Assembly: GCA_950295325.1 (NCBI GenBank)
Contig: OX485804.1
Span: 18,042,001 to 18,106,000, forward strand
Source of the DNA: Polytrichum commune
Taxonomy: Eukaryota; Streptophyta; Polytrichopsida; Polytrichales; Polytrichaceae
Direction: 5' to 3'
DNA length: 64,000 nucleotides
Under the pieces are notes generated by a model that saw only the letters and a list, made by a program, of their open reading frames with translations, had not been told where the DNA came from and searched no databases. Both the position numbers and the translations under genes were made by a program. Of this stretch, positions 8,122-46,677 are shown one piece after another (position 1 is the stretch's first letter; each line of letters starts with the position of its first letter).

Positions 8122-8354
8122 TATATAACATCATATTAAACATTATGGGACTTTTGGGAGTCCCAAAATTGCAAAACATGTACATTTTGACCAAAATTCT
8201 ACGTGGGAACGTGAATGGGAACGTGCATGGGAACTTGCCAAAGATTATGTGCGTGTGTATGGGAACGTAGGAACACGGGGGGGGGGGGGGGGGCACTCAA
8301 TTGGGAACCTCAATACGAGGAGTATGGACGAGATTGGGGAACTTCTATGGGAAC
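8122..8354 (+). repeat. Left terminal inverted repeat and GGGAAC subterminal repeats
   Basis: Holds the left 33-bp terminal-type repeat (8122-8154), then seven GGGAAC motifs starting at 8205, 8217, 8229, 8261, 8303, 8337 and 8349. A ~17-G homopolymer at ~8277-8293 interrupts the cluster. Arrays of short motifs just inside the termini are typical transposase-binding regions in plant DNA transposons. Confidence 0.6.
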
Positions 8355-8733
8355 CATGGCACATGGCTGGGCCATAACGTTCGCCAATGTACACCACTTA
8401 CACACGATATTTGTGATATTCATAAATAGTTGCCTGCGTACAAATTTTCACAGCACATACGTACAGTGTCCCACCGCACATGTTTGAAATTGCGGGGAAG
8501 TTAGGGTTTAGGGTCCCTACATTGAGGTCTGAAAATCCATACATTAATGGGACCACACCATGCATGATGATATGACATTGGTTGAAATTTGCACATATAG
8601 CAATTAAGGCCGTATCGACAAAAAAATGAGATGTTTGGTTCCAAACGTACTGCCCTATCACCTACCGCAGATCACTAGGGTCTTGACACTGGCTCATCTA
8701 ATCCCGTATCACCTTCAATTCCAGTGTCTTTGA

Positions 8734-11700
8734 TCACCGGGATGTGCGTCCCCCAGATTTACGTCTACCACCTCCATGTCCACGGCCCCCTCGATGCCCA
8801 CTAGACTCCCCGTCGTCCCACCCACCCTCCCTGTTCCCACGCTCGACTGTTGAACACCGTCGAAGATTATCTTTGGCAAAACCAATTTGCTCTGCTGGGA
8901 TAGTAACCTTTAATGGCTCCACATCTTCCTGTGCTGGCAGAGGCCAGGCTGCCAAAATGCAATCGATCGGCTGCCAGTCGGAAACGGAGTATTTCAAATC
9001 TCGTTTCCACTTGAAGTTTGGGTTTGAGTCCCAATCATTCCATTTCTTTGAAAGGTCCCTCGCGGTTGAAGTGGGAGTGAACCACTGTACAAGTATTTGA
9101 CGTGGATGATCTCCCGTGACCGCCAAGTTCGGTACAGACACAGCCCGGCATACCCAAATGGGTCTACCTATATCTTGTTCTTGGGGACGCAATATTAGCA
9201 TATGCCCCTCGTGCACATTCTCTGCGATGCGGAAAGCTGCTGCAGGACGAAGGTTTGCTGGACCAACATAATGGTCGTCCGGTTGGTGCTCTTCCCGAAG
9301 CTCTCCATTCTGCAAGAAGGGATGTGCATCTGCTTCGACTCTACTTCGTGGCCAGAATCCCTCGCATAATGGCAGCCCAACAGTGTATACGTTTTTGAGG
9401 GGTGCATCTAATGCCTCCTTCACCCCTATCCAATATTGCAAAATATGCATGTGTGAACCCATATATGCTCCTGTCGTGTCATGGTCACATATTGATTGCC
9501 AATAGTCAATGAACCCTTGCAATCCCACAAGAACCTCCTCCAGCTTGGCCATACCTCGCGGTGGTGCAGGAAAGGGGTCCCCGGATGGAATACATGGCTC
9601 CCCTTTTATATTTGATTTCCACATCTTCACACCGTCTTTGGGCAACCACTCCCCATGCGTGCTTAGCACTTTGTATTGCATAACTGGCCAACCATCATCT
9701 CGGACATAGAATTTGAACTGTTGAGCCTTGGTGTGCCCAATGAGTTTCTCCTTACCACTTGGGATATGCTCGCTGACGAATGTTCTCCAATCTGGAAGTT
9801 CCTCTATCATGTGTGGAATGACAGGAACCTTTTCCATGTCCATGTATGATTTCATAAGAAGGGGTATAGTGGGATAGCCGTGTTCACGCAGGTCCATACT
9901 CCACCTTCCAAATGATGCATCGATGTCAACATGGGTGTGGCCAACCAATAGATAAGATACATGTACCTCCGTGAATATTGCTTTCGCCGTGAGCATAGAC
10001 CAAAATGCCTTTACAAACCTACACTTGTTGTCCTTCCAACAATTATCAAGCTGAACATGCAGAATGGGTGGAAGAGGAACTGTAGGTGTGGGCTCCGTGG
10101 GTGGGGGTCGTAATCCTCCCAAACATACATCGCTCCCATTGAGAACAACACAATACAAAGGTGCACGCCCGGAACCATGAAAAAGACGCTGGGATGATGA
10201 TATGGGAGGTTCCTCCAAATCGCGTAAAAGTCTCGCGAATGAGCCCACAGTATGGTTGCAATCTCCAGGGTACATGTCCAGTGCATAGTGGGCATATCTC
10301 TCATCTCCATGTCCATGGGCCATCATGCCTGTTACAGAAAGTGGTAGCTTTGTAAACATATCGGTGTCTTTGTTCTTGGAAGCAAAGCAAGGCGATGCGG
10401 TTTTGCCATGGTCCATTTTGTCGTGGATAATCGTCAACACCTTTTGGGGATGCTCAATTGAAAGAGCCCTCATGCATTGGTAAGCGTTGCGAGCCGATTC
10501 TTGTTGTGCTAGGTGTTTTTCCAATTGTTTCGAAAACCCTGTGTGTGCGGCTGAACCTTTCATATGTTGAAGTATAATTGCGGACAACGAATCACACTTC
10601 CCACAACGCGCAAAATTATCACCAACCCTCTTCTTTATGTAGTGCTTAAAGTAGGTATTTCGAATTTTGCTCAGAGTTGAAATAGATATTGGGAGCACTC
10701 CGCATTTGTCATTCACCTGCCCATATAGTATTAGTATAACATTAATAATACTTCACATGAACCATGAACCAAAGTGTATGAAATACGTTCATAATTGCCC
10801 CCTCGTGTCTATTCATTATACACAAACCCAACTCGATTGAATGTTTGATCTCCATTATCAATGCGGGTAATTGGACTATACCAATTGCGTACCTCATTGA
10901 TTGTAACCAAGAACTTCTTCCATTTGGTTCCGCGAGGCAAGACCATTTCTACAACTCGTGTACCATTTGGCAATGTGCGAGCCTTGTGAGGCATCATATT
11001 TGCTTTGTCTTCCAGTAGTGTCGAAAGTGTGGCTGTAGCTTGCTGGGTGGATGTTCGATTCCTTTTCTTATTTAGGTTCCCATGATCGCGTGGACGCATA
11101 CCATTCTTGAATTCCGACCGGTTTCTGTAGAACGTCGTTTTCGAGACGGCAAAAATGTGTCTCCATGCCTTCTCGCAGACATTGCGCCCACTCAAGGTGA
11201 CGACCTTCGTTGAACTTACAGGTAGTACATGTAATTGGCCATGGACTTCGAGTTGCTTAGCATGTCTCATCCGTGGCGAACAAGTGTAGAACTCCGTTCG
11301 TAGCGCAAGTGCCTCTTCCCTGGGAAAATATCTAGTGCACTCCCTATCACAACACACGCTAGCAGATAGTTAGTGGATGCTATTATTATTGAGAATTTGT
11401 GATTTCTTTGTCGGTCTGTTCTGCGGCGTCGTGCGTGATGTTACATATGCCCTCTTCCCCTCTTTCTTCCGTCTTTCTAGCAACGTGTTTTGCACACGCA
11501 ACCTGCGTGTGCTCACTAGGAGGTGGTGTGCAAGTGTATACCTCTGTTGGAAAACCCGATCAAGAGGCCATATTCGCAAGGAGAACATCCATCCCATATC
11601 CATCATTCCCTCTAATGGCTCCATAATAAGCACACCAATATTGTCTATTCCTAGACATTTGTCTTCAACACAATCCATCGGATTGACGTTGCAGCAAATT

Positions 11701-11987
11701 CCTTTTGCCACATTTTGTCCACTCACATTTACAAGCATAACAGGACTATGCAGCCATTCCTCCCTTCTCAGCCCGCTGCAGTCTACATCAATATCCTCTA
11801 TGCCAGCATTAGTGTCGTCTTCCGTGAACACCGCTTCAGATAGTGAAGATCCCTGCATCGTATTATCAGGTAAGTATGTTTGTCCGTACTCATGTCAGAT
11901 ACCACAATATGAAGTTACATCACATTGCAAAGTGGGGCAGTAACTGACCTCCTCGGAGCTCAAATGCTCTACTTCAGGTTGCTCCAT
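8734..11987 (-). CDS. DUF7869-like DDD transposase, four exons
   Basis: Proposed exons: 11949-11987, 11542-11852, 10824-11358 and 8734-10716, giving ~955 residues. Splice signals are GTCAGT, GTATAC and GTGTAT donors with CAG, TAG and CAG acceptors, and phases match. The start is the ATG at 11987. Motifs: a CGKC cysteine pair (~333-336), IHDKMDHGKT (~393-402), VQLDNCWKD (~516-524) and LVGHTHVDIDASFGRW (~552-567). Together these give three spaced acidic residues as expected for an RNase-H-fold DDD/E catalytic core. The GHTHxDID signature is, from memory, that of the DUF7869 group of transposon-linked proteins. The C-terminus (~925-955) is Arg/Gly-rich. The gene sits just inside the left terminal repeat and is divergent from the cargo genes. 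The reading frame is intact, so it may be active. Confidence 0.7.
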
Positions 11988-12604: not shown

Positions 12605-12965
12605 TTCCTCTCGGCGGAGAGGAACTTGGCGTGGAGATTCCTCTCGGCCGAGAGGAAAATTCTCTCCATGGTCTTTACACCCCGTGGGCGCGTGACTAGG
12701 ACTAGCGGACCATGTCCACTTGCTGATCACATGGAACCATTCTCCACTTCAGTCTTCAAAGTTCTCATTTGGATTTAGGTTGGAGCGCAGTTTGGCGCCG
12801 TAACTCGGATATCGGTTCATCCCGCGTTGCCAGTTCTGATAACAAAAAATGGCCCAATTGGAGCTCTCATTCGGTGCCAGGGTACAGGGTGTCGGGTTTC
12901 CTCTCGGCCGAGAGGAAACTTGGTGCCAGGGTGAAGGGTGAGTTTTCCTCTCGGCCGAGAGGAAA
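12605..12965. repeat. Four CTCTCG-NN-CGAGAG palindromes upstream of the transposase gene
   Basis: Palindromes lie at 12605-12624 (one mismatch, GGCGGAG), 12638-12657, 12896-12919 (24-bp perfect) and 12944-12965. All have centre GC. They sit 0.6-1.0 kb upstream of the transposase start codon. Immediately before them is a short (CTACAC)n run (~12568-12586). Confidence 0.85.
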
Positions 12966-12969
12966 CTTG

Positions 12970-15900
12970 GTGGCAGTGTTCATGAGGAAAAAAGGGCTAT
13001 GTCAGCTGGGCCGTACAACTGTACGGCTGCCACGTGGATGAAGTTGTACGGACAACTGATCGTAGGATCAACGGCAAAAGAAAACATACACTACTTAAAC
13101 CGGCACCTGTAAAAGAGAGCATGTGTTGGGTTCTGAATGCGTGTAGTGTCGACAATGAGAGGTATGGAAATGCCTCAAGAGTGAGAGTCGGAGACGGTTG
13201 TGGGTATGGGCCTTATATAGTAGATGGGAGATTGGTGGTTTTGAAATAGACGGGATCCTCTCTTGTACGGAGAATCAGCAGTTGAGGAGGTGTAGAGAGA
13301 ATGATTGTTTGGCGAGTAGATGTGCTTTCTAGTTGATAGTACATATAATGTACATTCTACACTACCTTCCATTGAATGCGACTGATCTCAAAATTTCGAA
13401 TTTAGTGTACATATATCCTCTCCAATGTGTTCATTGATTGTTGATCGTGGTCTAGTGTGATGAACTCTCAATCCCACTGTAGTCCAATCTCCTATAAACA
13501 TGTGTCATTATGGTATTTGTTCTTTCACAATCACCGAACCACGCACCGACCAGTGGGCCATGGTGGCAGCATGCAATATTTAGTAAATGCCAAAAAATTT
13601 ACCCTAAACCCTTAACCAAAAAAACGGCAAGATGAACCATCATTAATATCCATGGGCCCACTATATAATTGCACTCAAAACAATGTGCCATTGATATATG
13701 AATTTAAGACATTAAAAGGTAGAGTGGAAAAAAAGGCTAACCCCAAACCCCAAACCATCTTGGAGTGTGAAACTAAACATTGTTGTAACTTAATATCATG
13801 TCACACTTGTCTATAGCAAACATGATCCAGTGGGTGACTTGTGGCGAATTCCAAAAATGTGGGGTCAATTGCCATTTCGTAGATGCTTCCATGTTAAGTT
13901 CTTTGTTTGTTAAAATTATGAAAACAATCACTACACTGATTACCCAAATTGGTGAGGGATGGCTAATAGTGTTGTTGGGAAAGTACACTAAATAGGATGT
14001 TGAGTGTTTAATACACTAAATGAGAACAAATACACTCAATATCAATAACCATTAGTGTTAGTAAAGATATGGGAAAAATTGGGATATAATAAGGGATGTG
14101 GTAGTCGGGAAGAAAGCGGTACATTTATGTCCAGCACTAATGGTTAAAGAATTGAAAATTAGTTTTGAGCAAGGTAGGGTGGTGGTAGCAAACCCCAAAT
14201 ATAATCAAACACTAAATATCTTATTTAGTGTAGTGAAGGTGATACTAAAGTTCTTTATGCTAGGGATTTAGTGGCAGCAACAGAGCTAGGAAGCATTGGT
14301 CATCGTGAGTAATATTTATAACATCATTATTCATTTAAAGTATTGGCACTGTTCGTTGACAAGCAATGTGTTTGCATACGAAATGTTTAATCACACTACT
14401 AGCACCTTAGAGAACGCACTAATTTTCTCAAAATGAGCATGTATTTGTGAATTCAAAGATGTATGTGGAGTTTTAGAATGAGTCTTCGTATTATTATAAG
14501 ATAGCTATGTCCAATTTTGGTTCCTTATCTTAATCAAACACCTAGTATATGTCAGTGATATGTGGTTTGATGTGGCTCCAAGAATGGATAATAAAAAGGA
14601 GCTTTATTTTAAGGTATGAGGAGCCAAAAAGCTCGCGATGGGACTAGAGGTACATGTTGTCAAAAAGGCTAATTGCGTGGAGTACTAAAGCACAAGGGCG
14701 TCTACGAGATAGCGGTTGATATCAACTTTATGATCCACTCGGAAAAAGACTTGAGAGTACTATGATCTAAAATAGGGACAACGGTCAAAATCATCATATG
14801 GTCTCCAAAAATGATTAAGAAATGGCTATATCATGACTTGGATAAGGTAACCACTTGTTTCATATCCAACGATAAGTGGGTGCAGAGGTAAAAAATGTCC
14901 ATATAAGAAATGCTTAACTTAGCTCACTTACTTATTGACTTTATTAGTTTTTTCGGTAGCTATGATCTATAATTGACATGATTAAGTATGCCTCCTTGAT
15001 GCCTTTGACCTTGAAATGTGAGTGTATCTAATCCAGTATAACACCACAATGGGCCCACAATATATGTGTGAAATAGTGGAAGAGCAAGATTTAAATGAGA
15101 TGCATGAAAATGGGAAAATGTTTAATGCACAGCCACATTTTAAGAACTAAAAAGAAAAGAGGATGTGGACCCAAGCAATGGGAATCATTACTAACCAACT
15201 AGATGATGGTCTCCATAACATTATTTAGTTGTTATTGAGTGTTCCGTTATAATAATAGTAGGGCTCGGGGCAATCACATCCCCCTTCCATTTCGTTATCG
15301 CGTGCGTTTACCAGGTACGCAACTCCCGTATTATGTGGCCCTGATTATAATCACTTACAATGCGTTTTATTCCAATATTGAGTGATGCAATTTGTTTTAA
15401 TGTAGGAACCCCTTGTGGCCCTTCTAACAGAGGATCCAAAAATGTAATTATATGTATGAAACAAATATGTTTTGAACCATATGATTGCATTGAAAACCTG
15501 ATTATTTGGTTTTTTTGATACATGTACCATAGGTCAAACTACCCAACTTTTTGGAATTTTTGATAAAATTTCAACATTGTGAACGACTTATAATTTTCAT
15601 GGCAGGCAACTAGTCGTGGTTTATAACTCTAATTGGAGGCAACTATTCGGGTGGATTTTTAGAACTATGTGTAGGCAGCTTTTTTCTCATCTCATTTTAT
15701 TTAATTTGGTCTTCAAAAAAATGAGGGGTTGATATAAAACTATTCCCAGTAGGCAATGTTGAGAAGGCATAATTTGAAGCATCACATCCGATTTAATGAA
15801 TTCTTCAAAACCAAGTGCAGCCTCCATGTAACAGGTGAGGCTATATTTACAACGTTACAACATTACACCATGATTATAGAGACATGGATGCATTAATGAT

Positions 15901-17000
15901 CAAAGTTGGTTCAACATTTTCCCATTACCATTTTGTAGATGTGATTTTTCCACTCACAACGTGAACTTTGGCCCAAATATTATGAGTTGCATGGCATGGA
16001 TTTTAAAAGAGACATGTGCCCAACTTGGAGGTCATGTCATCATAATCAAAGTGTTGTAAGGTCAAGGTTTTGTGTGCCAAAAAAAACTATGTGTTACAAC
16101 TTAATGTATTTCAAGTACCTTCTCTTGCATATTTATCATATGTTCTTAAAGAAAATCTGTTTTGTGTGTTTATTATAGTCAAATTTCATGAAACAGTTTG
16201 GCACGCATATGGAAGATTTACTCATCACTAGTAATGCTTCTTATTTGAATGAAATACTCATGTTTTATAAAGATAGGTTGAGATAATTTGAATGAATTGC
16301 TCATGTTTTATAAAGGCAATAATTTGAAGGGTTGCTTGTATTTCATAGGGAAGGGTAACTCTAAATTTTCCCTTTCAAAATGAAGGGTTACCTCAAAAAC
16401 TGCCTTTCATGTATGTATTGAAGTTTTGTTGAAAGTGCACATTACCATGTTTATCATTTAAGTGACGTTGAAAACTATAAAACAAGTAAGACCAAAGAAC
16501 ACACATGGTTAAAAGATAGAACTATTTCATTAATGAAACATGGATGTTTGAGTACAATAAAACGGTAATGACATCTCAACATATTGATATCAATGATAAT
16601 GTCGAGGACAACAAGAAAGCAGTAGTATAAAGATGTAAGAAACTCACAATCTAAATCGCATTTGAAATCTTTTATGAATCATTCATGCACCTCTCCCAAA
16701 TATCTTTAAAATCAAGAGACTCCATAGGAATCTTCGCCATACTCCATTTTGAAGGGTTTAATAAAAATCACCCCTTCTTTTTTGAAGGGTTGCAAAAAAA
16801 ATTTGAAGGGAGTGTGAAGTTCTGGACCCCAAGAAAAGGGTAATAGCCATTCAATTTTTGTCCCTGCTTTATATCATGGTGCTTGCATAATAATTTATCT
16901 ATCACTTAACAGACGAGGAATTGCCAAAGTGCAAGAAAATAAAATTGTAAGACAAGATCCATGTTCAGGGGTCTCTTTTGAGGTATGAAGCCCGCCTTTA
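12970..17000. other. Non-coding interior of the giant element
   Basis: No supportable gene in 4 kb. Visible items: a CACGTG G-box-like hexamer at 13031-13036; a TATA-like TTATATAG at ~13214; recurrent 'acactaaat' motifs at ~13983-14040; a hairpin CACTAAATA/TATTTAGTG at 14210-14230; and repeated 'catgttttataaag' (~16260 and ~16300) and 'gaagggtt' motifs (~16325-16800). The sequence is AT-rich and looks like decayed repeat or spacer. Confidence 0.4.
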
Positions 17001-17424
17001 CATAAATATATATAGGTTTGCCTATGTGCCCCCCCCCCCCGGTCCAAACGTACTCTATCGACACATGTCGATTGGAGCTCCCCTACACGGGCTATTAGTC
17101 GGTATAGAGGGTCATCATGGGTAGGTGAGATGATCTTGGCCGTTTATAATGACGGCTCAATGTAGGCCGTCGATGCGGGCCACTATCCGAGGCCCCCGGG
17201 TGGAGTCCCTTCGGAATCATTGCGCCTTTTCATTTGTGGCCGCACCTCCTCACTCCCCTCCTCCCTCTCTCCCTCACTCCAACTCTCTCCTTCTCTTTTC
17301 CTCGCATTGCCTCACATTTCCTCGCCTCATTGCATTTCCACGCAATCTCCCACTACTCCAGGTTTGGGCGCGGAGGTGCATATCCAGCGGCTTTGGAAAT
17401 CTTCGGCGCGCCTCACAACTTCTG
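17001..17424 (+). promoter_or_regulatory. Likely promoter and non-coding first exon of the ParB-like gene
   Basis: A TATA-like AAATATATATAGG lies at ~17004-17016, followed by a poly-C tract (~17030-17040). A pyrimidine-rich leader (~17235-17330, CTCC/CTCT runs, a plant 5'-UTR style) then ends at a consensus GTGAGT donor (17425). The next good acceptor before the coding ATG is TTTTGCAG at 20144-20151, implying a 2.7-kb leader intron that contains the palindrome arrays. An open frame through this region is proline/serine low-complexity and I do not call it coding. The transcription start is inferred only. Confidence 0.4.
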
Positions 17425-17639
17425 GTGAGTATTCCACCACTACACCAGATTTTGCTTAAAACTTCATGTTTGAATGTTGGTATGGAGCGATTTGATGCAC
17501 ATTCTTTGAGTCATTATCAGTATGTTTGTATGTGCTTTGAATCTGTTGGTCTTGTGCGATTTCTATGAACATCTGAAAATAACTGGTGCATCTCTCAAGT
17601 CAGATTTGTGCTCTCTCCACTTAGAGTATGTGTTTGAGT

Positions 17640-18030
17640 TATCTATTAGGTTTGAATGTGTTGAGTTGTTGAAAGTGCTGAGTTGTTGAAAGTGCTGAGT
17701 TGTTGAGTTGTTGAAAGTGCTGAGTTGTTGAGTTGTTGGGTTGAATGTGTTGAGTTATCTATCAGGGTTGAATGTGTTGAGTTGTTGGGCTGTTGGGTTG
17801 AATGTGTTGAGTTGTGTTGAGTTGTGTTGAGTTGTTGAATGTGTTGAGTTGTTGGGTTGTTGGGTTGAATGTGTTGAGTTGTGTTGAGTTGTTGAATGTG
17901 TTGAGTTATCTATCAGGGTTGAGTTGTTGAGTTGTTGGGTTGAATGTGTTGAGTTATCTATCAGGGTTGAATGTGTTGAGTTGTTGGTTGGGGTGAAGAA
18001 ATTTCAGGGTTGAATGTGTTGGGTTGAATG
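17640..18030. repeat. GTTGAGTTGTTG-type minisatellite in the leader intron
   Basis: Irregular tandem arrangement of short units built from TTGAATGTG, TTGAGTTGTTG and TTATCTATCAGGG, with nested higher-order duplications. The strand is strongly T/G biased. No coding potential. Confidence 0.8.
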
Positions 18031-18543
18031 CTTTAGGTTGCTGAAATATCTTGCTTGAATAAGTAAACATAGTATCTTCAATGTTCTGTTCCTCAACTTC
18101 CTCAAATAATGGTGGATCTAGTTGAATATCAATGTAGCAATTGTAACTGTAGTGGCATTCATCAATGTAAACACTAAACCCTAGAAAATAAACTAAGCAA
18201 ATGTTCTTCTTTTCAATCTCCAGTGACTATATTGTATTTGTTGTTGCCGAACTAGTTCCAAAGTTTGTCTTTCTTCTGCGTTAATTGTTTGTGTGATAAT
18301 CATGCAGTCTCATTGAAAAATCACATCTTATTGCAAGAAATTGAGCCATTGCAGTCTGATAGAGCCATTGACACAATAGTTATGTTTTGGCATGTGCATT
18401 GATATCAATTGCATGAATTCAAAGTCGGTCTTTAATGCTTGATTCAACTCAATGTTACAAAACTCAAAATAGTGTCACAAAATAGTGTGGATAACTTATC
18501 CCTCACACAAACCCTCCCTCAAGCACCAGGATGGGAGGGAAAA

Positions 18544-19150
18544 CTTCCTCTCGGGCGAGAGGAAGATTTCCCTGGGGGTTCGCATTTTCAGAGCCCCCCA
18601 CCCTCACTCTCACACTTGAGGGTGAAAACTTCCTCTCGCTCGAGAGGAAGTTCTCCCCTGGCCTCTCATTTTCAAAAGGCCCTCCACACCCTCACTCTCA
18701 CACTTGAGGAGGGTGAAAACTTCCTCTCGCTCGAGAGGAAGTTCTCCCCTGGCCTCTCATTTTCAAAAGGCCCTCCACACCCTCACTCTCACACTTGAGG
18801 AGGGTGAAAACTTCCTCTTGCTCGAGAGGAAGTTCTCCCTTGGCCTCTCATTTTCAAGAGGCCCTCCACACCCTCACTCACACTTGAGGAGGGTGAAAAC
18901 TTCCTCTCGTTCGAGAGGAAGTTCTCCCCTGGCCTCTCATTTTCAAGAGGCCCTCCACACCCTCACTCACACTTGAGGAGGGTGAAAACTTCCTCTCGCT
19001 CGAGAGGAAGTTCTCCCCTGGCCTCTCATTTTCAAGAGGCCCTCCACACCCTCACTCACACTTGAGGAGGGTGAAAACTTCCTCTCGCTCGAGAGGAAGT
19101 TCTCCCCTGGCCTCTCATTTTTAAGAGGCCCTCCACACCCTCACACACTG
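18544..19150. repeat. Palindrome array: six ~90-bp tandem units, each with two hairpins
   Basis: A single palindrome at 18544-18565 (centre GG) is followed by six tandem units. Their palindromes start at 18629, 18720, 18811, 18900, 18989 and 19078, so unit lengths are 91, 91, 89, 89 and 89 bp. Centres are CT (one unit TT). Each unit also holds a second hairpin, GGCCTCT..AGAGGCC, decayed to AAAGGCC in the first units. Open frames through the array are a by-product of the repeat period. Confidence 0.9.
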
Positions 19151-19786
19151 ACGTCTCCCTAGCCTACAATCCTTTTTCAAATATTCAAAGATGTCAATTC
19201 TTCGAGTCATTTCTCTGTCAATATCGTCATCCTTGCACCAGGCAGAAGCACGTTTCAAATCAAGCTCATTGATGATCACATTACAAAGAACTGGATACTT
19301 GGAACCAAGATGTGTAATTACCGACAATCTTGAGTATGTGCTGTGATGAATGCTTAATAGAGAAGTTTTTGATAGAGCTTGCGACTAAAATTACTTTGGT
19401 ATGCAAACGTCTTCATACATTATTAATCGATTTTGGCGATTTGTGGTTGGAAAATGGCAGGTTCGTTATCTCAGACAGTTTCGTGAGTTGCAACTCCCTT
19501 GCCTTGAATTCAACCCTCTTTGCAAGGTACAAGTTCGACTTCAAGAAAATGATAAAGAAAAAGAATGTCATTGTTATTTACAACTGATATGTGATGTTTG
19601 TTCATCAATCCCTACTCATGGGGAGCGTGGGAACTGGTTTAATGTTTAATTAGTCTATATTATGTTAGTAAATCAAATATGGATGAATGGATGCATGTCT
19701 TTTATTTTGTTTTTGGTTTCCATCAATTTATAATGATGTGGGTTAGGTATTCGATGACAAACCCCTATCAACATGACAGCAGGAAA

Positions 19787-20028
19787 GGGAAAACTTCCTC
19801 TCGAGCGAGAGGAAGTTTTCCCCTGCGCTCACATTTTAAGAGCCCCTCCCAACCCTCACACGCAGACTTGAGGAGAGGGAAAACTTCCTCTCGACCGAGA
19901 GGAAGTTTTCCCTTGCACACTCATCTTATTAGCCCTCTCCTAGCCCTCACTCCCTAGACTTCAATCCACCCCTATCAACATAGAGCAGGAAAGGGAAAAC
20001 TTCCTCTCGACCGAGAGGAAGTTCTCCC
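19787..20028. repeat. Three extended palindromes just before the ParB-like gene
   Basis: Three 36-bp palindromes lie at 19787-19822 (centre AG), 19877-19912 (centre AC) and 19993-20028 (centre AC, one arm mismatch). Each arm extends the common core to GGGAAAACTTCCTCTCG. They end ~130 bp upstream of the coding start, inside the proposed leader intron. Confidence 0.9.
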
Positions 20029-20156
20029 TTGCACACTCATCCGTCACAGTATGTAAACCCTATTTATCAACGTACGCGATAGCCTCAAGGTGCAAGCTCT
20101 CTCAAGCTTGCTTTATTCCACAAATACTAACCATTTCAATTTGTTTTGCAGGTGAC

Positions 20157-23100
20157 ATGGAGAAGGAAGTGCTATGGACAGACCTTGTTGGGACAATGGA
20201 AATAGGGCAGAAGGGTGTCTATTGGGAATTAAAAGACACTCACTTGAGACACTGGTCAATTCAGGTACACAGGAGGGACAAAGAATCTCCGTTAAAACTA
20301 ACCCTCGCATACAGGGTAGGAAAAAATTGGATTCCAAACCTAGGAAACGCAATAACCCTGGCATCGGTCGGCGATCGCGACCAGCTTAATGTAACGGTGC
20401 TCGAAGGACTCGAAGAACGCACTTTGTCCATCGACTGCAAAAGACATAGATTTCACCTGGAGCCATTCACCCAATCAATCGAAATGCTTTCTCATGCGGA
20501 TAAAGAAGAGATGGAGAGAGTGATGGTCTCCGGTGTATCGAAGAAGGAAATTAACTTCCTTCTTGAAGCAATAGGTGATATCAATTCGAGAGAGGCAAAC
20601 GAAATGGAGGCTCTTAGGACGCAAAAGAAGAAACAAGCGGAGACACTTCTGAAATCTAGGACTGATGATGAGGGGAGTAAGAAGAAGAAACAAAAGAAGC
20701 AAAAACCCGGCGATCAAGATGTTGAAGGAACAAGAGAGGTGGCAAAGAAGCCCAAGAAGGCTTCTGGTGAACTCGTTCCCTTGGCAACGCCTACAAACGC
20801 GACGCCAATTATGCAAAGCCATCCCCAAGAGACATCAAGTGCAAGGAAACCTCCGGCCTCAAAGAGAACTACTGATGAGGAGCGGAAGACAAAACCTAAG
20901 AAGGCGAAGGCTGCGGATGCATCGGAAGAAACTCTACTAGTGCTCACCGCAACAGAGAGGGGCAGAGTCATCGCACATGGCGAGGAACCAAGCCTGGAGG
21001 AAGCTGCAGCGGACCGCAAGAAATTTGTCCAATTATTTGGACACTTATATCCTTTCGGTATCGAGAAAGTTTTTCATGTCCACATAAAGAAGATGTTGAG
21101 CGCAAAGTCTTATCAGGTTACTCGCCCATTGGATGATGTCGGAGTAGCTCTCATGAAAAACTACCTTATACAGACCCCACCAGCGTGGCCCAATCACAAT
21201 CTATGTCTCATGCCGAAACTCAATAAGGGTGAGACATGGAGAGAAAGAATGACCTGGGACGATATCAAGGACGACAATTTTGTGATCATCAATGGTCAAC
21301 ACAGCGTGGCTGCTTCGAGGCAGATTATAGGGCACAAGGATACAGATCGAACACTCAAGGATAAATTGAAGATTTGGCCTTGTACGATTGTTTGGACCAA
21401 TGATCCAAACATGACAGTTCGTCTCTCCTATACTCTAAACAACTCTAATTCTTTCAACAAGTTCACTCCTACTTGGACAACACAAATTATGTACTGTCGT
21501 AGGGTGTGGGTGAAACTAGGGAGGCCCTCTAAACAACGGATCAACGCTGTGGGGACAACTATAGACCCCAAAATGAAGGAGGCATGGAGAGTAAGTTTTC
21601 ATACACCCACTTTCATTCCAACTTTTATTTTTGCACTCCCACATGCAGACTCCTCTCCCATCCCTCAATCAGGGATCAAAGGCTTGAGGGAGGTGAGGGA
21701 ACTTCCTCTCGGCCGAGAGGAAGTTCCATCGCCTCCCTCAAGCCCTTGATCCCTGATTGAGGGATGGGAGGATTCATGGAACTTCCTCTCGGCCGAGAGG
21801 AAGTTCCCTCGCCTCTACCCTCCATTCATAGTTACTTCAACTTGTGTTCTAACACTTCTCCATTGCAGAATTTCACGACAAGCATGGAGGCTTCATTTAC
21901 CGCCATTGCTAGAGGGATCACCCACAATGACCTTAATGCTGAGCTGGCACTCATCATGGCAGATGATGAGACCTCAAGGATGTGGAAGAAGGTATTTCAA
22001 GGACACGAGAAAGGGACCCTTATTAACCCGGACAAACCAGGCTCCACCTATTTAGAAGAATATCTGGACACGCAACAGAAACAGCGAGCCCGCCACGACA
22101 AGAAAAAATCGGCAACACCATTCGAGAAGAAGCCGTATGTTTGTAAGCCATTGACCAGGGAAACTTTCAGGGTGATGGCAGGCCTAACACGGCCCGACTA
22201 TCTTCTGTGTGCGAGACGTATCCTCGAGGTGAGGCCTGGCGAAGAGGTTCCTAGAGTCTCTCTCCGTGTCACGATGTCACGACCTTGAAGTCGTGGTGTA
22301 ATTTTAGGAAGTGGAAGAATATTCTTCTGCAAGAGTTGTCAGCACACGACCCAGACGATCTTGGCATTTGGGGAAAGGACTCGGAGGACAATGAATGCCT
22401 TAATAGATCTGTTTGGGACAAATTCAAGAGGGACCATGGCATCACGAAGGCCAAATGGGTGAAGCTTTATCAGGTTGCAGGTGATGGTTGGCTAAATAAG
22501 AAGCGGTTGCCGAACTACAAGAAACTGGACCCTACCCCGGCATGCTTGCGTTTGTTGTAAGAGTGGCTGCAAACACCGGTAGAAGAGAGTCAAGGACAAG
22601 TGATCACTCGATATGTAGATTATAATTCTCTGAAGCGGAAGTTGGTGATCCCTAATCAGGACAAGGTCGACACTGATTGGTTCTCGAAGTTCACCATTAC
22701 AGGGGGCTTCATCGACTTTAGATTCATCCCGGGGTGTGTCGATAAGGCAGTATCATCGTCGGTGGTCGAGTCCTTGGTGAAGTATGTTGCAAACCCGATC
22801 TGGGTCCCGGGCCTCAAAAAAATCCCCGCTTGGATGATTGTGTCCGATTTGCGCAACCACCCCACGGCTGAAGAGTTCATCTCCGCCTTGATTCGCAAGC
22901 ACCCGGGGACGTTTCTGAACGTTCCGTCAGTTTATCTACCTTGTCACGCTGAGGATCAAACCTTCAACAAGGAAATAGATTGGCTAAGGACTACCCCTCT
23001 TTTTTATGTGGACTTCCTCACTTGCCGAAGTATCCTCCCGCGCCACAAGCAGTTTCGATGTCCCATGATAGCGCCTGTAACTCGGCGTTACAATGTGAAC

Positions 23101-24606
23101 CCGAAGGAGTGGTCGGAGCTTTTATACGAAGCGAACAGAGGCGAGTTGCGAATGGAGGTTTACAACTCGTTTCTCAGCAACCTTGGAAACTCGGGAGGAG
23201 TTGTGATAAATCTATTCGGCGGGTTGAAGCCTATTGCTGCCGCATTTGTGAGTACATACAATATCCGCAACCTTGCTTTTATTCGCAGGCTTGTTTATCT
23301 ATTCTGATATTTTTCATGTATGCAGATGAACGAACAGCATGTGTTCTCGTGCATGGACTCTAGCTTCATGCACACGCTTCCCGAGAAGATAGATTACGTT
23401 CGGCGACTTCGGGCTGTGGACTTTCAAGATGACCAAGAAGACCATGAAGTTGTAGGTGACGGAGATGACCACCCTCAACCTCAGCAAGAAGCACCCCCTG
23501 CACTGTTGCTGGAGGATGTTTCGCGAGATCCGTCACCCGGTTTGGACATCGACGCCATGGACGTTGATAGAAACGAATCCGAGGGCGAGTATGAGGAGCC
23601 CGAAGATGACGACAAAGAGGCGCCTAGTGAACATGATACAGAGGAGGCCTCCAGTAGAGGGGAAAGCGCCCATATGGATACGCAATCGGATGAATGCGAA
23701 TCCATTCACACACAATCACCACAACCACAGTCCGCTTCACCTATGCGCGGCAGGGTCTTGGAATTTGAAGAGGACGAGCATGTCACCTCTCTAGCGGAAG
23801 GTGACCCGGCCGAAGACCAGTATCGCGACGAGGATCACGAGGGAGATGCCAATGAAGAGCAAGATGCCGAGTACTCGGACCGTGAGGAGGAGTTTGAGGG
23901 AACGCTCCAGGAGGAGCTCGAGGGGGGCCTTGACGACGCACAAGAAGGGGCTTGCGAGGGAGCACAAGAAGAACGAGAGGTGGCTCAAGGAGAACATGAG
24001 CAGGCTCGTGTTCAAGAGGAGGCCGAAGGTGATGCGGCTGAGCTCACACCTGAAGTGGCAACCACCTCCCGGCCTTCCACGGCGTCAATTGTGTCTGAGA
24101 GCGAAGAAGAACTGCCACCGCCCAGTGCCCCAAAATCCAAGGCCTCCAAGCGAGGCAAGCACAAGGACCGGCATACGAAAAGACATAGTTCTCGGGTTCC
24201 AGAGCCTGTGATAGCGGAGTCTGTATTGGAAGACAAGATTGTGGGGATCTTGAGAAGCACACTGCCGAACATGCTGTCGGGTTTGCTCCAAGAAGCGTTG
24301 GGCCTGGCAAAAAATACCCCCCCTCAGCAAGTGCCGACACCAACACCCACAGTGGATGTTGCAGTCGGTGCAGCCGAGCCCGAAAGGGTGGACGATCAGG
24401 TGGGCGCATCGCTCCCAGTTGGCGTGCAAGCAGTGGATGTCTCCTGCGTGGATGCAGCACCGACAACCATCGACACCTCCGACAAGGCCGAGGTCAGTGT
24501 AAGTATTCGATCCCCGTGAACATTTCAGTATGCAAGTTTTTCTGTTCAAGTGACTAAATCTCCACCTGGATATTTGATCCAGGTCGGTGATGGCGCGGCA
24601 TCTTGA
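20157..24606 (+). CDS. ParB/sulfiredoxin-like domain protein with methyltransferase-like end (in-frame stop)
   Basis: Proposed exons: 20157-21590, 21869-22228, 22312-23247, 23326-24498 and 24583-24606, all phase 0, ~1,300 codons. The start ATG lies 5 bases after a TTTTGCAG acceptor. Residues ~155-252 are Lys-rich (nuclear-type). Residues ~365-435 contain FVIINGQHSVAASRQI, then WPCTIVWTNDP and a LSYTLNNSNSF segment, the order seen in ParB-N/sulfiredoxin-fold proteins (G-x-H box, then PC.I.., then the 'LADN' segment). Residues ~875-935 (VVINLFGGLKPIAAAF, then a MDSS turn) resemble the end of a beta-class DNA methyltransferase, where motif I (DPFxGSG) comes last, but the key residues are changed. 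The next ~390 residues are acidic/Pro-rich, with a Lys-rich patch and a short hydrophobic helix (~1225-1245). A TAA at 22558-22560 interrupts exon 3, so this copy may be a pseudogene. The acceptor at 22311 is unusual. Confidence 0.55.
21655..21807. repeat. 116-bp and 30-bp palindromes inside the first coding intron
   Basis: The 278-bp intron (21591-21868, GTAAGT...TTGCAG) contains a palindrome at 21655-21770 with 58-bp arms and only three mismatched pairs, centred on CTCTCGGCCGAGAG. A second, perfect 30-bp palindrome follows at 21778-21807. Transcribed, the first would fold into an almost uninterrupted hairpin. Confidence 0.9.
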
Positions 24607-24714: not shown

Positions 24715-24720
24715 AATAAA
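24715..24720 (+). terminator. AATAAA polyadenylation-type signal
   Basis: AATAAA lies 110 bases after the proposed TGA at 24604-24606, in an AT-rich stretch. It supports an end of the ParB-like transcript here, though the phase-0 exons that follow leave open a longer transcript. Confidence 0.3.
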
Positions 24721-24795
24721 GTGGATTCCTTTGTCTAGCACATGTATTTTCTAGTTTGCATTCAATTGTCCTTAATGATGTCTTGCAATTCACAG

Positions 24796-26768
24796 GCTTG
24801 CCTGCACAACCCAGAACGAGTGGATGCATCACACACTGCAATTTTGTCTATTCAAACGTCACTAACTCCAATCGACGACCACCACATCAACCCCTTGCCT
24901 ATTGTGGTTCCCATACACACTTCGGATGCAGCGGTGGTCACCCGCGCTCCACCCACGGCCCCGTCACCGCCAGAACATCTGCAAGCTCAGGTTCCATCGC
25001 CGCGTATGGCACTCTCGCCGACTGGCATCAAACAAGTGGCAAATTCTACAATTAGTGACATCATTCAAGAAGTTATCCAAGTGCCACATTCTGCGCAGCC
25101 TCCACTTGAGCCCTCACCTTTGGAGGTTGTCGAGCTATCGCCGCAAGGTGTGGATGATGATGTTGCCAACGAAGAGGCTTCAACTCCACCCGTGGAGTGC
25201 CCTCAAACAAAGCCACAGTCGCATGCGACGGCATCCACGAGTGCTGTCAATGTTATCCCATTGGACTCGTCGAATCCAGAAGCCACCATAAATGCTCCAC
25301 AAGCTGTTAGGAGGTATTTGACACATTGGCCACAAGGCGAGAAGGCTCCCCATCCAGTATTCAACAACGTTAGTTGCCAAGATTTCCGGACGACGCACAA
25401 CAACCAAGACGATCAGAGACGGCGTGCCGAGCTTCTAAAAGTGGTGCCTTCACATGTCAAAGTAAGTTTATTCCATCCAATGCATTCGTTAAAAGGCACG
25501 TTAGTTTCGATTGACATATGTGTATTTCGACCTTTTCACCTCCCCATTTATTTAAATTCGCGTAGTTTTGGGTTTAGGCTCCACAGCATTCGATAGCGCC
25601 TTTGGATGCGCCTCTACCAAAAGACGTCGTCTATGATAAGCTATTTGTTTACGATGACACATACCCAAAGATCAATAGACCTTGCCAAGTTTTCACAAGG
25701 GAGATGGGAATCGCGTGTGCTAAAAGACTAATGTCTAAGTATCCCGAAGATCCTTCCCTAGGGTACTCTGAGCGATGGGAATTCAATCCAATACAGTACG
25801 AGGTATTGATCGTGGCCCATTTCTCCCTGTCGTTCGAGTTCGCCCATACCACACGTGGTTTGGAGGACTACACAATGAACTACTTAATGGTATAGTCCAT
25901 CATGCCTAGGTTTGCGAGGTCATTCTATGTTTAATTTATATGTAGCACATGTCAAAAGCTCACAGTGGGTTCATGTCGGCAGGCGCCTGCTGCTACACCC
26001 AGTCGAAGGTTCATTGTGGTGTTTGATTTAAACGGCATATTTTGCCACTGTTCCCGACGTAACCCGGGTATGGTGACTGTGCCCACTTGGATAACTTACG
26101 ATAAAGCACCGGACAAACCTCCGGCCTTGGTAGGGCCCAAGGTTGTCCTACCTAGACTGGGATACAAGGTGTTTTGGTTGCGGATGTCCTCCATGTTCCA
26201 TGTTTGCATATGGTCATCCATGAAAAAATCCACTGTAGACCTTGTGGTGGAGTATCTATTTGCCGGGGGCCCAAAACCCGCATTAGTACTTGGCCAAGAG
26301 GATTGCACCTTGTTCAAGGACATGTGGAACAATGTCGTCATGAACCCTTTGAAGCCAGAAGCTCCTTTGTTTTTGAAAAGTTTACTCAACAAGTTTTGGT
26401 GGCCGCCTATATCCTTTGATTCTGGAAGGATCACAGCTGCACCCTCGAACACCATTCTAGTAGACGATTGCCCTTACAAATATGTTTGCAATCCGGACGA
26501 GTGTGATATCTTTCCCAACCCATTCACATCCAATCGGGTGCAAGACGCAGACATGGCAAAGGTCCTCCTTCCTTACTTTCAATCATTGTTCTACTCACCA
26601 ATGTCCGACGCACGCGAATTTGTGGTCAGCCGTAGGTTTGGGCAACAACCTGTACGGCATAACGATGCAGTCAAGGTGGCAGTTTTGAAATCCAACGGGC
26701 TTGAAGAAACCGACTCGGAAATTGTAGAAAAGTTGCAAATCGATCGAATAGAAGTAGCAAAGAAATAA
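24796..26768 (+). CDS. Pro-rich protein with FCP1/NIF-like HAD phosphatase domain
   Basis: Exons 24796-25461, 25578-25802 and 25983-26768, each opening after a CAG/TAG acceptor and all phase 0. The first two end at GTAAGT and GTATTG donors. The first exon is Pro/Ser/Thr-rich and probably disordered. The last exon carries an FCP1/NIF-type HAD domain: motif I VVFDLNGIF, a WSSMKK segment at the usual motif II place (consensus WTS), and ILVDDCPYK for the late acidic motif. The nucleophile Asp is kept, but the usual second Asp is Asn and the following Thr is Ile. To my knowledge DLNG variants occur in plant FCP1-like proteins, so activity is uncertain. No clear initiator: an ATG at 24742 is in frame but lies in what looks like an intron end, so this may be the 3' part of the preceding gene. 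It stops at TAA 26766-26768 unless splicing at GTAGCA (26750) joins the next exons. Confidence 0.5.
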
Positions 26769-26813
26769 GTAGGATTGTATGTCTAGTAACATTGTATTTT
26801 ATGGTATCTTCAG

Positions 26814-27920
26814 CTTCCTCCTGCTGGGTACACACCATCCAGTTCCACGCCATCAGCTTTTGCGTGCCCCACTTCGGGGCTCTCACGCGGTCCAATAGAG
26901 GCGAAACAAGTTTCAGAGTCGCACAACCCAATGGAGGTTTCACCAGTGAAGAACAACTTGCACCATGTGCAATGGACAGATGGATCAACTCTGGTAATTT
27001 ATTATTGTGTCATTTATTATTATAGTGTTATTTATTGTTTCGACAACATTATTGTGTAAAGGTTATTATAATATCAAACACACATTTCATTACCAATTCA
27101 GGGTCATTAGCATAAGTATACTTGAATCTGTATAAATCCAAACTCGCTTGAACGTGCATGTGTACGCAATTTTGGTTCAGTTGCTACCGCATATGCGAGT
27201 TATGAAATCATGATAAGTTGCAAACATATATATGTATGGGTGTATATGTGTATATGTGTATGGGTGTATATCTGTATATGTGTGTGTATATGTGTATGGG
27301 TGTGTATATGTGTATGGGTGTATATGTGTATGGGTGCATATGTGTATATGTGTATGGGTGTATATGTGTCTATGAGTGTATATGTATGCACGAGTGTATG
27401 TAAATTAGTAAGCCAAATAAATGCGTGTCACTTTGTCACCGTGCAGGGTGTTGATCTCAATATGGAACCCGCAGTGGAAGATTGTGCATCCCCTTGTGAA
27501 ACATTGCCCGTCCTGCGCTCTATCTCTACACGCGACCACCAAATCTCCCTCATTGAATCAAGAGGCCCTAACTCAAGGGGTGTTCACATGTTACGTGCGG
27601 GATTGGCGAGCATTGGCAAAACTTATGACCCACAACCTATCACGACCACAGTGCCAACGATACTTTTGAACACGCAAGGTGCTGACTTCAATATGAAACC
27701 ATTGGGACCACCTTCCACCCGCGAGCATCAAATAGAGCTTATTGAGTCAAGAGGTCCTAATTCAAGAGGCGTCAATCTATTGCATGCGGGGTTGGCTGAC
27801 CTCGCGACACACACAGAGCACGGTCCGGAAACGGTTAGCCTCCCCTTGGAAGGCCCAAAATACCACAATCAATGTGATGGACAGATGATTTGTCTGTACC
27901 CTAAATATGCTAGAAGTTAA
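26814..27920 (+). CDS. Two exons encoding a protein with LIESRGPNSRGV repeats
   Basis: Exon 26814-26993 (CTTCAG acceptor, phase 0, 60 codons, Pro/Ser-rich) and exon 27447-27920 (GTGCAG acceptor, phase 0, stop TAA). The second contains two copies of a ~28-residue motif, STR(D/E)HQI(S/E)LIESRG followed by PNSRGV(H/N)(M/L)L(R/H)AGLA, separated by ~60 residues. Each is preceded by a (V/A)D(L/F)NM(E/K)P motif. I do not recognise the family. The exons follow the phosphatase exons with compatible phase, so they may be a continuation of that gene. No start codon is identified. The repeats being conserved at the protein level suggests past selection or recent duplication. Confidence 0.4.
27225..27400. 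repeat. TATGTGTATGGGTG-type minisatellite
   Basis: Tandem, slightly irregular units of GTATATGTGTATGGGT lie in the intron between the two exons around 27.0-27.45 kb. Long open frames across it on both strands are repeat artefacts. Confidence 0.85.
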
Positions 27921-28775
27921 ACAATCCCGTGACCAATTGTGCGGGCATTCATATGTGTACACAATATTTAGTGCAACACTCAATATATAAAAGTGGCCAG
28001 ACACTCCCAATACCCAACGCATTGTCTTATATCAAGTCGGTTCACATGTCAACCATGCTCTCATTTTGCTTACCATATCCACATGCTTGTTTGCACCCAA
28101 TGTATGGTTCTTGCTTGTCCTTCATAAATCCATCATCGAGCACTCCCCCATGTATGGGTGGAACATGTAGTGCATAAACGATACAGCGGAAGCTCCATGT
28201 GAATGTTTTCGTTCTGTCTTGCATAACTGCTTCATGGGAAGCTGCCCCTTCATGTAACCTATTTGTCCTGCCAAAACTCTTCTGTGATTGGACACAACGC
28301 GTAGGGCGCCTTTGTCTTGAATGCACACTCCCAGAGGAACAACCCATGTGTGCACCATGTAAATCCGCCCTTAAGGTATAGACACCCTATAACCGATAAC
28401 GATCCCATCACCGACAAGTAGAGTAGCTCATAAATGCACATGGCTTTACTAGAAGTCGTTATGAATATATATAAAATGCGAGGACAATATGACTGTGGAG
28501 GGGAAGTTGTTTCCCATAGATATTGTCGGTCATGTGTGAAGCTATGTGTTGGTTATGGGCTTTGACCGACTTTCGCACAAAGAAATTTTACACAATCAAT
28601 TTTGAAAAAAAGGTCATTATTCATGAACCTTATTTTCCTACGCACAAAAAATAACTCCTCCTTGATATTCCAAGATATGCTATGCTGAAATGCTTAAGTT
28701 TTCGGTTATAGGTATCTATACCTCACATGTTGAAGTGTTATTCACACTTGTTCGTACTATTCAATGCCGTGTCAG

Positions 28776-29678
28776 GATGCCCCTCCCAACCCGGCCAGTT
28801 CCCCCCCAGCTCCCCAGCCAACTAGGTTCGGGGAGGTCATTGCGAGAATGCAAACAGCTGAACTGGAACGCCTGTTAGGCCTCCCAATGGAAAGGAGGAG
28901 TATGGACGACGAGTTTAACAACTTAGCTTCAGATATTGATGTGTGCATGGAACGGTTCATGCAACTACAATCATTTATGACCACTGCTTTAGATAGATAT
29001 AAAGGATGCCGCTTGGTTGGAATGGATGCACACATGCTTGGGAGATTGGTGGTATACAGTGCCGATATAGGGCTCACCATCCCACAAGTGGAGGCACTCC
29101 AACAACGTCTCCCAGAGTTGCACTTAATAGAGAACGATATGTGGGAAGCTACTCAAGCAATCGAGCCCCATTTAGATGACTTACTCCGCCGTGATTCAGA
29201 AGACATGTTGAACCATGTCTATGACATCACGGATGAGAACCTCCCAATCACACCATTGTTGGAAGCCTGTCATATTGCCGATCCACAGAATGATGAAGGA
29301 GACCCAGTGGAACCCACAATGGGGGAGCGTAACATTGATTACGAGTTTTACTACTTAGCATCGCAGATCCATGACGTAACGCGCGAGTTTATGGGACTAC
29401 AGAGGACCATGACAACTGCTCTACAGAGATATACGGGCACTCTTTTGCTCGGCGATCGCATACACCGCCTTTGTATGTTGGTGTTAGCGGCAGAACACAT
29501 TGGCTTTGACTCTCAGCAAAAAGCCTATCTTGGGAGCAAAATACCGGACTTGGCTTACATGGAGAAAGTTACATGGGAGCAATCTCGGGAAATCAAACCT
29601 CACTTGCCAAACATCTTTGAGTCCATGGCCAAACAGGACTCCACAATTTGCGAAAGCCAAGGCACAAATGTAGAGTAA
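28776..29678 (+). CDS. Unrecognised protein with a tandemly duplicated ~105-residue helical domain
   Basis: The open exon starts after a GTGTCAG acceptor (phase 0; in-frame ATG at 28764) and ends at TAA 29676-29678, ~300 residues. After a Pro-rich start, two related domains follow. Both have the order MxER..(D)(D/Y)EF..LAS.I, then F(M)xLQ..MTTAL(D/Q)RY.G..L(L/V)G, then I(G)...Q, then WE(A/Q)(T/S)(Q/R)(A/E)I(E/K)PHL. They lie ~130 residues apart and differ at most other positions, so the duplication is old and both halves stay open. Predicted to be all-helical. I do not recognise the family. Last cargo gene before the right terminal repeat. Confidence 0.5.
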   Translation, partial: DAPPNPASSPPAPQPTRFGEVIARMQTAELERLLGLPMERRSMDDEFNNLASDIDVCMERFMQLQSFMTTALDRYKGCRLVGMDAHMLGRLVVYSADIGLTIPQVEALQQRLPELHLIENDMWEATQAIEPHLDDLLRRDSEDMLNHVYDITDENLPITPLLEACHIADPQNDEGDPVEPTMGERNIDYEFYYLASQIHDVTREFMGLQRTMTTALQRYTGTLLLGDRIHRLCMLVLAAEHIGFDSQQKAYLGSKIPDLAYMEKVTWEQSREIKPHLPNIFESMAKQDSTICESQGTNVE

Positions 29679-29871
29679 TTTAAGTTATGGCATGTTACAG
29701 GCATTTATAGCACAATATTCAATCGAGTGGACGCCTCCTAGCATAGAATTGGTGTTTCAATGAAGAGGATTGTGGGTGCAAACCTCCTGTTGTGTGACAG
29801 TCTATGCAAAAGCCCATTGGAAGCAAAGAGTATTTGTCTTGCATGGGCATGTCCATCCAAAGTGTCTACGA

Positions 29872-29975
29872 GTTCCCAATGAGTTCCCAATGAGTTCCCC
29901 ATGAGTTCCCCACATACATCCCAGAAGTCCCAAAATCATCCTAAAGTCCCATAATGTTTAATATCGCGTTATATA
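29872..29975 (-). repeat. Right terminal inverted repeat and GTTCCC subterminal repeats
   Basis: Four GTTCCC motifs start at 29872, 29883, 29894 and 29905, exactly 11 bp apart. They are followed by the 33-bp inverted partner of the left end at 29943-29975. Bases 29976-30407 outside show nothing recognisable. Confidence 0.6.

Positions 29976-42358: not shown

Positions 42359-46677
<4,319 letters not shown>

Follow-up and report, generated by a model that had tools for sequence, protein, structure and literature searches.

Two described systems stand closest to the locus treated here. In Arabidopsis, the protein VANC binds motifs of 8–9 bases in the non-coding DNA of VANDAL transposons and removes methylation; the consulted part of that study adds that the motifs differ between related families and that the transposase is better conserved than the other protein (PMC5735166). 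VANDALs are classed as Mutator-like elements without terminal inverted repeats (TIRs) in the portion of a second source that was available (PMC13317346). Sola elements have TIRs, 4-bp target site duplications (TSDs) and a DDD-type transposase, are reported from the moss Physcomitrella, and mostly measure 2–9 kb, some exceeding 15 kb, in the part of the account used here (PMC10741241). Sola2-Fanzor1 chimeras, described in a source likewise consulted in part, have 4-bp TSDs that are AT-rich and differ in their 3' parts (PMC3627910). The present analysis concerns an element of the moss Polytrichum commune at positions 8127–29970 of a stretch of 64,000 nucleotides (assembly GCA_950295325.1, contig OX485804.1, positions 18,042,001 to 18,106,000 of the forward strand; hereafter the window). 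The element carries a transposase-like gene, a spliced gene that we call GQH/methylase-like, and arrays of a short palindrome. New here is that such arrays stand at matching places across diverged subfamilies while their sequence changes.

Ends and copies of the element

An earlier reading of the window from its letters alone (the sequence-only reading) had proposed a giant DNA transposon at 8122–29975 from an inverted match lying 21.8 kb apart. The match is real, with 32 of 36 positions agreeing between 8122–8157 and 29940–29975, and the element was confirmed. However, the proposed limits overshoot by 5 bp at either end, because the exact element is bounded by ATAT TSDs (Table 1). Its TIRs are 28 bp long with AAC...GTT termini, and the two share an identical core of 22 bp, ATATTAAACATTATGGGACTTT; no further place in the window carries this core when up to five substitutions are allowed. 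GGGAAC repeats lie just internal to both TIRs, in inverted orientation relative to each other, and the 11-bp period that the sequence-only reading had noticed at the right end is present.

The genome searched was the 407.8-Mb assembly of 64 contigs that contains the window. With up to three mismatches, the TIR core was found at 207 places, compared with 3 for the reversed pattern. From about the first 100 of these places, 32 inverted end pairs were taken and their flanks were read. Every one of the 32 pairs has an exact 4-bp TSD outside AAC...GTT-type termini, while the left flank of one copy agreed with the right flank of another in 14 of 992 combinations. The TSD sequences vary between copies (GGAT, CATT, TACT, CAAT and others). 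The tested pairs range in length from 784 to 73,240 bp, with a median of 25.6 kb, and 29 of them exceed 20 kb; the largest copies probably carry nested insertions. Two kinds of support that the sequence-only reading had named, other loci with ends about 20 kb apart and a short duplication at the exact ends, were found. The refuting case that it named, a dispersed repeat without a partner, was looked for, and the ends proved to be paired. The paired inverted termini and the fixed 4-bp TSD are those of class II elements, and they support the identification of 8127–29970 as a giant class II (TIR) DNA transposon.

For 17 ends of the same end type in other copies, the longest aligned piece was 95.5–99.1% identical to the window copy, and no flank was held in common among the 30 loci compared. 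The similarity of the ends within the window's subfamily, together with the unshared flanks, points to a recent spread of this subfamily. The shortest tested pair (L086, C1:53900886–53901669) is a derivative that retains TIRs, subterminal repeats and a 4-bp TSD. Further candidate end pairs outside the tested 32 include C1:7834429/7838942, C1:21253463/21389095, C3:52817553/52839234, C6:38475344/38494011, C6:38871697/39069897 and C6:41342329/41385722. Outside the element, three GGGAAC motifs on the minus strand of the window (39456, 39475 and 39486, within 39456–39491), two of them 11 bp apart, may mark the terminus of a further related element or of a short derivative. A search of Rfam gave 0 matches.

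The 4-bp TSD of the tested pairs is a feature shared with Sola as described in the consulted part of the literature (PMC10741241). The TSD, the DDD motifs described below and the occurrence in early land plants point to Sola, a putative assignment by features. In contrast, the size of this element (median 25.6 kb, up to 73 kb), its gene set and its palindrome arrays are absent from the consulted portions of the Sola accounts (PMC10741241, PMC3627910). Ginger was rejected on its 5'-TG...CA-3' termini (as given in the available part of PMC10741241), which differ from the termini found here. Kolobok and piggyBac were rejected on their TTAA target (as given in the available part of PMC9587614), since the TSDs here vary.

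Palindrome arrays

The 20-bp palindrome TTCCTCTCGNNCGAGAGGAA occurs 16 times in the window with up to three mismatches, compared with a mean of 0.0 in five shuffles. Its copies extend from 12605 to 21802, all inside the element, which agrees with the sequence-only reading. None of the 16 lies in a predicted exon: 4 and 10 stand upstream of the transposase-like and GQH/methylase-like genes, respectively, and 2 in the first intron of the latter (Table 1). That intron also holds a near-perfect palindrome with 59-nt arms (21655–21770), which surrounds one of the 20-bp sites. In the whole genome, the palindrome was found at 578 places with up to two mismatches, compared with 16 for the reversed pattern. 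The 50 places considered, all on contig C1, were taken in contig order rather than at random and end before the eighth pair; they fall inside seven of the eight tested C1 pairs longer than 20 kb, which together make up 0.28% of C1.

A diverged subfamily (B) is represented by one sampled copy, C3:33705654–33731991. It also has 16 palindromes at comparable places, with 5, 7 and 3 in the corresponding positions and 1 in intron 2. Between the window and B, intron 1 is barely alignable except for the palindromes and the acceptor end, while certain other non-coding stretches align at 72–75%. More distant subfamilies were each examined through one sampled copy, named by its exon-1 identity to the GQH/methylase-like gene of the window. 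The 69% copy has nine sites of TTCCACTCGATCGAGTGGAA (intron variant ...GAGAGGAA), and the 66% copy has 12, with TTCCACTCGATCGAGTGGAA upstream and TTCCTCTCGATCGAGAGGAA after exon 1. The palindrome TTTCACTCGATCGAGTGAAA is found at nine sites in the 59% copy and at five in the 47% copy, where another pattern gives seven. In the 30% copy, TTACGAACGNNCGTTCGTAA occurs at 10 sites, eight upstream and two just after exon 1. For the 69, 66, 59 and 47% copies, the copy's own pattern was absent from 10 shuffles apiece, and for the 30% copy the mean over 20 shuffles was 0.0 (up to two mismatches). Palindromes just 3' of exon 1 occur in other subfamilies also.

Relatives were also met outside the moss. Contigs L002, L011 and L012 belong to a GTDB species genome labelled Synechococcales (AVDCRST_MAG81), and they carry transposon genes, with GT-AG introns in L011 and L012; they are likely eukaryotic contamination of a bacterial bin. 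L011 and L012 have eight sites each of TTCAGCTCGANTCGAGCTGAA, located in introns 1 and 2 and downstream, and in L012 also upstream. In L002 (4.3 kb), TTTAGCTCGANTCGAGCTAAA stands on both sides of a transposase-like open reading frame (ORF), with seven sites at up to five mismatches and a mean of 0.0 in 20 shuffles. A palindrome scan without a preset pattern, readable in five of six loci (L001 has runs of N), gave 9 in L002 against 1–4 in shuffles. The same scan gave an AT-rich top pattern of 7 against 2–4 in L003, and counts no higher than in shuffles in L004, L005 and L006.

The consensus half-sites are 9 bp long, begin with TT and end with CG, and are separated by a spacer of 2 bp in the moss genome but of 3 bp in the bin contigs. 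The 69, 66, 59, 47 and 30% copies and L011/L012 contribute four further half-site sequences, with sites upstream and/or in the first intron. Five of the six half-site sequences sit beside the GQH/methylase-like gene, at matching places.

The GQH/methylase-like gene

This long spliced gene lies on the plus strand from 20157 to about 24516, with exons chosen by us (Table 1). A frameshift near 22229–22308 was considered and dropped, as an alternative acceptor preserves the frame. The motif IINGQHSVAAS of exon 1, which reads IIDGQHS in the 30% paralogue, is in our view reminiscent of ParB-like folds. In the L011 homologue, the C-terminal part matches the final portion of PF01555, the N6/N4 DNA methylase profile, at a score below the cut-off (E 0.007, 16.8 bits). 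Homologous first introns with palindromes are found in L011, L012 and B. The protein alignment comprised six sequences; B and the 66% and 47% copies were left out. Upstream of the gene, 17634–18040 is an imperfect array of GTTGAGTT-type repeats.

A search of the genome with the exon-1 protein gave at least 91 matches, with identities from 100 to 30%. At least one such match is held by 27 of the 30 tested pairs longer than 10 kb, where about 0.2 matches would be expected by chance. In total, 32 of the 91 matches fall within tested pairs; the rest lie outside them, some about 8–9 kb from TIR-core places that were not among the tested pairs. No TIRs were found for the 59%, 47% and 30% subfamilies. 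A subfamily of 57–59% identity occurs at 15 places over the whole of exon 1 with near-equal scores, and exon 1 is open in 11 of them, looking like a recent burst.

Database searches gave little. A tblastn search with the GQH/methylase-like protein returned two phage matches at E 2 and 4 and no plasmid match. The methylase-like part of L011 matched phage records annotated as DNA helicase (E 0.6) and a phage methylase (E 4), and its N-terminal part had no match. One PHROGs family of unknown function was returned for the GQH part (E 0.048), nothing useful came from a sequence search of the PDB, and a search of viral contigs found no relatives.

The transposase-like gene

The DDD transposase-like gene that the sequence-only reading placed at the left end is present: Pfam DUF7869 matches 8737–10752 on the minus strand (E 1.5e-39). 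The main frame is 45% identical over 641 aa to the 963-aa ORF of L002 and 90% identical to B, and its three Asp-containing motifs are kept in the L002 ORF. At the level of motifs, this conservation fits a putative DDD triad. DUF7869 was mentioned in no paper found by a literature search, and among the matches listed, no title or abstract start describes such an element. More distant DUF7869-like frames occur in contigs L003, L005 and L006 of bins labelled Bacteroidetes, the first of these being confirmed by Pfam. Contigs L001 and L004, which the scan that yielded L002 also picked up, appear to be matches by chance and were rejected.

Other genes and the conserved gene set

Table 1. Coordinates of the element and its features in the window (percentages are identities to the relatives named)
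Feature	Position	Strand	Remarks
Left TSD	8123..8126		ATAT; window sequence
Whole element	8127..29970		21,844 bp; ends set by comparison with other copies
Left TIR	8127..8154	+	AACATC + 22-bp core
Left subterminal GGGAAC repeats	8205..8354	+	7 copies
Transposase-like gene, main exon frame	8734..10752	-	DUF7869; motifs HDKMDH, QLDN, LVGHTHVDID
Transposase-like gene, upstream exon frame	10809..11369	-	39% over 160 aa to L002 ORF; 89% to subfamily B
Possible further transposase exon	11370..11894	-	open frame only
Palindromes upstream of transposase-like gene	12605..12964		4 copies
Palindromes upstream of GQH/methylase-like start codon	18545..20020		10 copies
GQH/methylase-like exon 1	20157..21590	+	IINGQHSVAAS motif; ParB-like by eye
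Intron 1	21591..21868	+	GT-AG; 2 palindromes at 21703, 21783
Exon 2	21869..22228	+	
Exon 3, methylase-like part	22312..23247	+	in-frame TAA at 22558-22560 in window copy
Exon 4 frame	23326..24519	+	acidic low-complexity tail; 3' limit approximate
Open frame F	24739..25596	+	function unknown; 48% to subfamily B
Open frame upstream of FCP1-like domain	25578..25895	+	72% to subfamily B
FCP1/NIF-like domain	25935..26768	+	Pfam PF03031 E 4.1e-9; 78% to B; 34% to L011
Repeat-containing open frame	27447..27920	+	function unknown; 79% and 62% to B
Open frame with two tandem repeats	28734..29678	+	function unknown; 72% and 66% to B
Right subterminal GGGAAC repeats	29872..29910	-	4 copies, 11-bp period
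Right TIR	29943..29970	-	AACGCG + 22-bp core
Right TSD	29971..29974		ATAT; window sequence

The FCP1-like gene named by the sequence-only reading was borne out by the Pfam NIF profile, with 36.8 bits against a curated cut-off of 21.8. DxDG is the catalytic motif of FCP1/NIF phosphatases, and it is replaced by DLNG in the window, in B and in L011.

The sampled copy of B holds homologues of the window genes in identical order. Identity between the two copies is 90% for the transposase, 74–82% for the GQH/methylase-like exons, 49% for tail frame E, 48% for frame F, 78% for the FCP1-like domain and 62–79% for the last two genes. The left 4 kb are 85% identical, non-coding DNA included. The ratio of non-synonymous to synonymous divergence (dN/dS), obtained by a simple count on this one pair of copies, both partly decayed, is 0.11–0.19 for the transposase, 0.05–0.16 for the first exons of the GQH/methylase-like gene, 0.41 for the FCP1-like domain and 0.29–0.61 for the other genes. 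Synonymous divergence is 0.25–0.47 for the transposase, 0.31–0.57 for frame F, the FCP1-like domain and the last two genes, and 0.97–1.78 for the GQH/methylase-like exons (20157–23247), the high values being near saturation. Divergence so far above that of most genes suggests that segments were exchanged between subfamilies, or another cause.

In L011, the GQH/methylase-like gene is followed by the FCP1-like gene, as in the window, and the transposase recurs in L002. For frames E and F and the last two genes, nothing in L011, L012 or L002 matched convincingly (E up to 1). The multi-gene set of the sequence-only reading is therefore retained, but not its status as cargo: because homologues stand in the same order in the diverged subfamily B, with dN/dS of 0.05–0.61, and genes recur in L011 and L002, the set seems to belong to the core of the element and not to have been picked up recently. 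Elsewhere in the window, the open frame 46165–46677 resembles 12-oxophytodienoate reductase, in keeping with a plant genome.

Discussion

We consider it fairly probable that, within a giant TIR transposon, the GQH/methylase-like protein reads its cognate palindromes as a family-specific means of self-recognition, opening chromatin in the manner of VANC and/or setting the expression of two genes. The protein is the proposed reader because the palindromes cluster at its gene down to 26–30% identity. In the proposed mechanism, the DUF7869 transposase would act on the TIRs and GGGAAC subterminal repeats and insert the element by a 4-bp staggered cut. Probably acting as a dimer, the GQH/methylase-like protein, with its GQH N-terminal part and decayed DNA-methylase-like C-terminal part, would bind the 20-bp palindromes (two 9-bp half-sites and a 2-bp spacer), which lie in non-coding parts of the element that encodes it. 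It would occupy sites upstream of the transposase gene and of its own start codon, and also within its own first intron. Binding may keep the chromatin of the element open, as VANC does for VANDAL, and/or set the expression of both genes. The paired ends, the TSDs, the gene set and the site arrays, constant in position and variable in sequence, are observed; binding, anti-silencing and transposase activity we infer.

The role of palindrome reader would be closest to that of VANC, by likeness of arrangement. As in VANDAL, the motifs are clustered in non-coding DNA, their cognate nature being a supposition here, and the transposase is better conserved than the second protein between the window subfamily (A) and B. 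This gap is partly one of age, because synonymous divergence differs as well. Unlike VANDAL, the present element has TIRs and 20-bp palindromes, and its sole Pfam transposase match is DUF7869, not a Mutator-like transposase. ParB-parS consists of a bacterial protein and its palindromic sites, with a ParA partner. It is resembled in that palindromic sites cluster beside a gene with a GQH motif; the differences are the introns, the fused methylase-like part, the failure of ParB profiles to match and that of ParA among the ten frames scanned. KDZ, Starship, Maverick/Polinton and Teratorn are likewise large multi-gene mobile elements, but they use other recombinases or transposases and carry other gene sets.

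Several results weigh against this reading of the GQH/methylase-like protein. The palindromes also track the whole element, so that another protein of the element could be the binder, and in L002 they surround the transposase alone; no clear palindrome family emerged in the distant DUF7869 contigs L003, L005 and L006. No ParB model in Pfam or NCBIfam matches at E up to 10, which reduces the ParB-like cargo of the sequence-only reading to a resemblance at the level of motifs. The methylase profile does not match the window copy, L012 or the 30% copy, and the score of L011 lies below the curated cut-off of 26.7 bits. A single in-frame stop interrupts the gene in the window copy; the sampled copy of B has none there, but has a stop in exon 1. 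Among 12 copies at 92–100% identity over the whole exon, exon 1 is open in 3, the window included, and has stops in 9. Three of the 30 tested pairs above 10 kb lack an exon-1 match. AlphaFold models made from single sequences without an alignment had low confidence (mean pLDDT 30.0 and 32.5).

The palindromes might instead be operators for simple autoregulation, through a repressor or activator of the transposase gene and of the GQH/methylase-like gene, with no chromatin role. The placing of sites upstream of each gene and within intron 1, and upstream and just 3' of exon 1 in other subfamilies, would suit such operators. However, 5 to 12 sites around one gene in the sampled copies, some of them intronic, exceed what plain repression usually needs; this is not decisive, and we regard autoregulation as rather doubtful. 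A partition-like system, with parS-like palindromes as loading sites for a ParB-like protein that clamps or bridges DNA, for instance to pair the distant ends or tether the element, would account for clustered palindromes adjoining a gene with the GQH motif, a motif kept in its 30% paralogue, and bridging could help to join ends 20–70 kb apart. The missing ParB and ParA matches count against it, and it seems unlikely.

That the transposase itself binds or cuts the palindromes as internal sites, serving regulation or deletion, is suggested by L002, which has its own palindrome family flanking the transposase-like ORF. In the window element, however, they are densest around the GQH/methylase-like gene and none is at the termini, which makes this quite unlikely. 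Perfect palindromes in introns and upstream of a start codon, and the palindrome with 59-nt arms, could also mean a structural role as transcript hairpins that affect splicing or yield small RNAs. The constant 9-2-9 geometry and the common TT.....CG frame of the half-sites fit a dimeric binding protein better, and we hold hairpins to be very unlikely. Chance inverted repeats, an assembly artefact or host genes between unrelated repeats are refuted by the TSDs of all 32 pairs and by nearly identical ends of other copies in different flanks; nothing spoke in favour of such an origin, which is scarcely conceivable.

Beyond palindrome reading by the GQH/methylase-like protein, we put forward, with somewhat less than even confidence, a broader proposal. 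Giant eukaryotic transposons may include a lineage that has its own genome-maintenance system at its centre, in which a ParB/methylase-like protein and co-evolved arrays of 20–21-bp palindromes, with six half-site sequences, give each subfamily a private chromatin identity. Such an identity could mean anti-silencing, self-recognition, or a bridge between ends that lie as far as 73 kb from each other.

One moss genome holds 29 tested paired-end copies of 20–73 kb with TSDs, compared with the 2–9 kb of most Sola elements in the consulted part of their description (PMC10741241). A very large element with several conserved genes offers a way to study how giant transposons survive in genomes, and it gives DUF7869 a biological context. 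The five palindrome sequences, each beside its own version of the gene, form a natural series for the co-evolution of a protein and its sites, and the arrays allow the study of how large elements escape silencing. If the proposed role is true, a second VANC-type system beside that of Arabidopsis would show that the strategy recurs.

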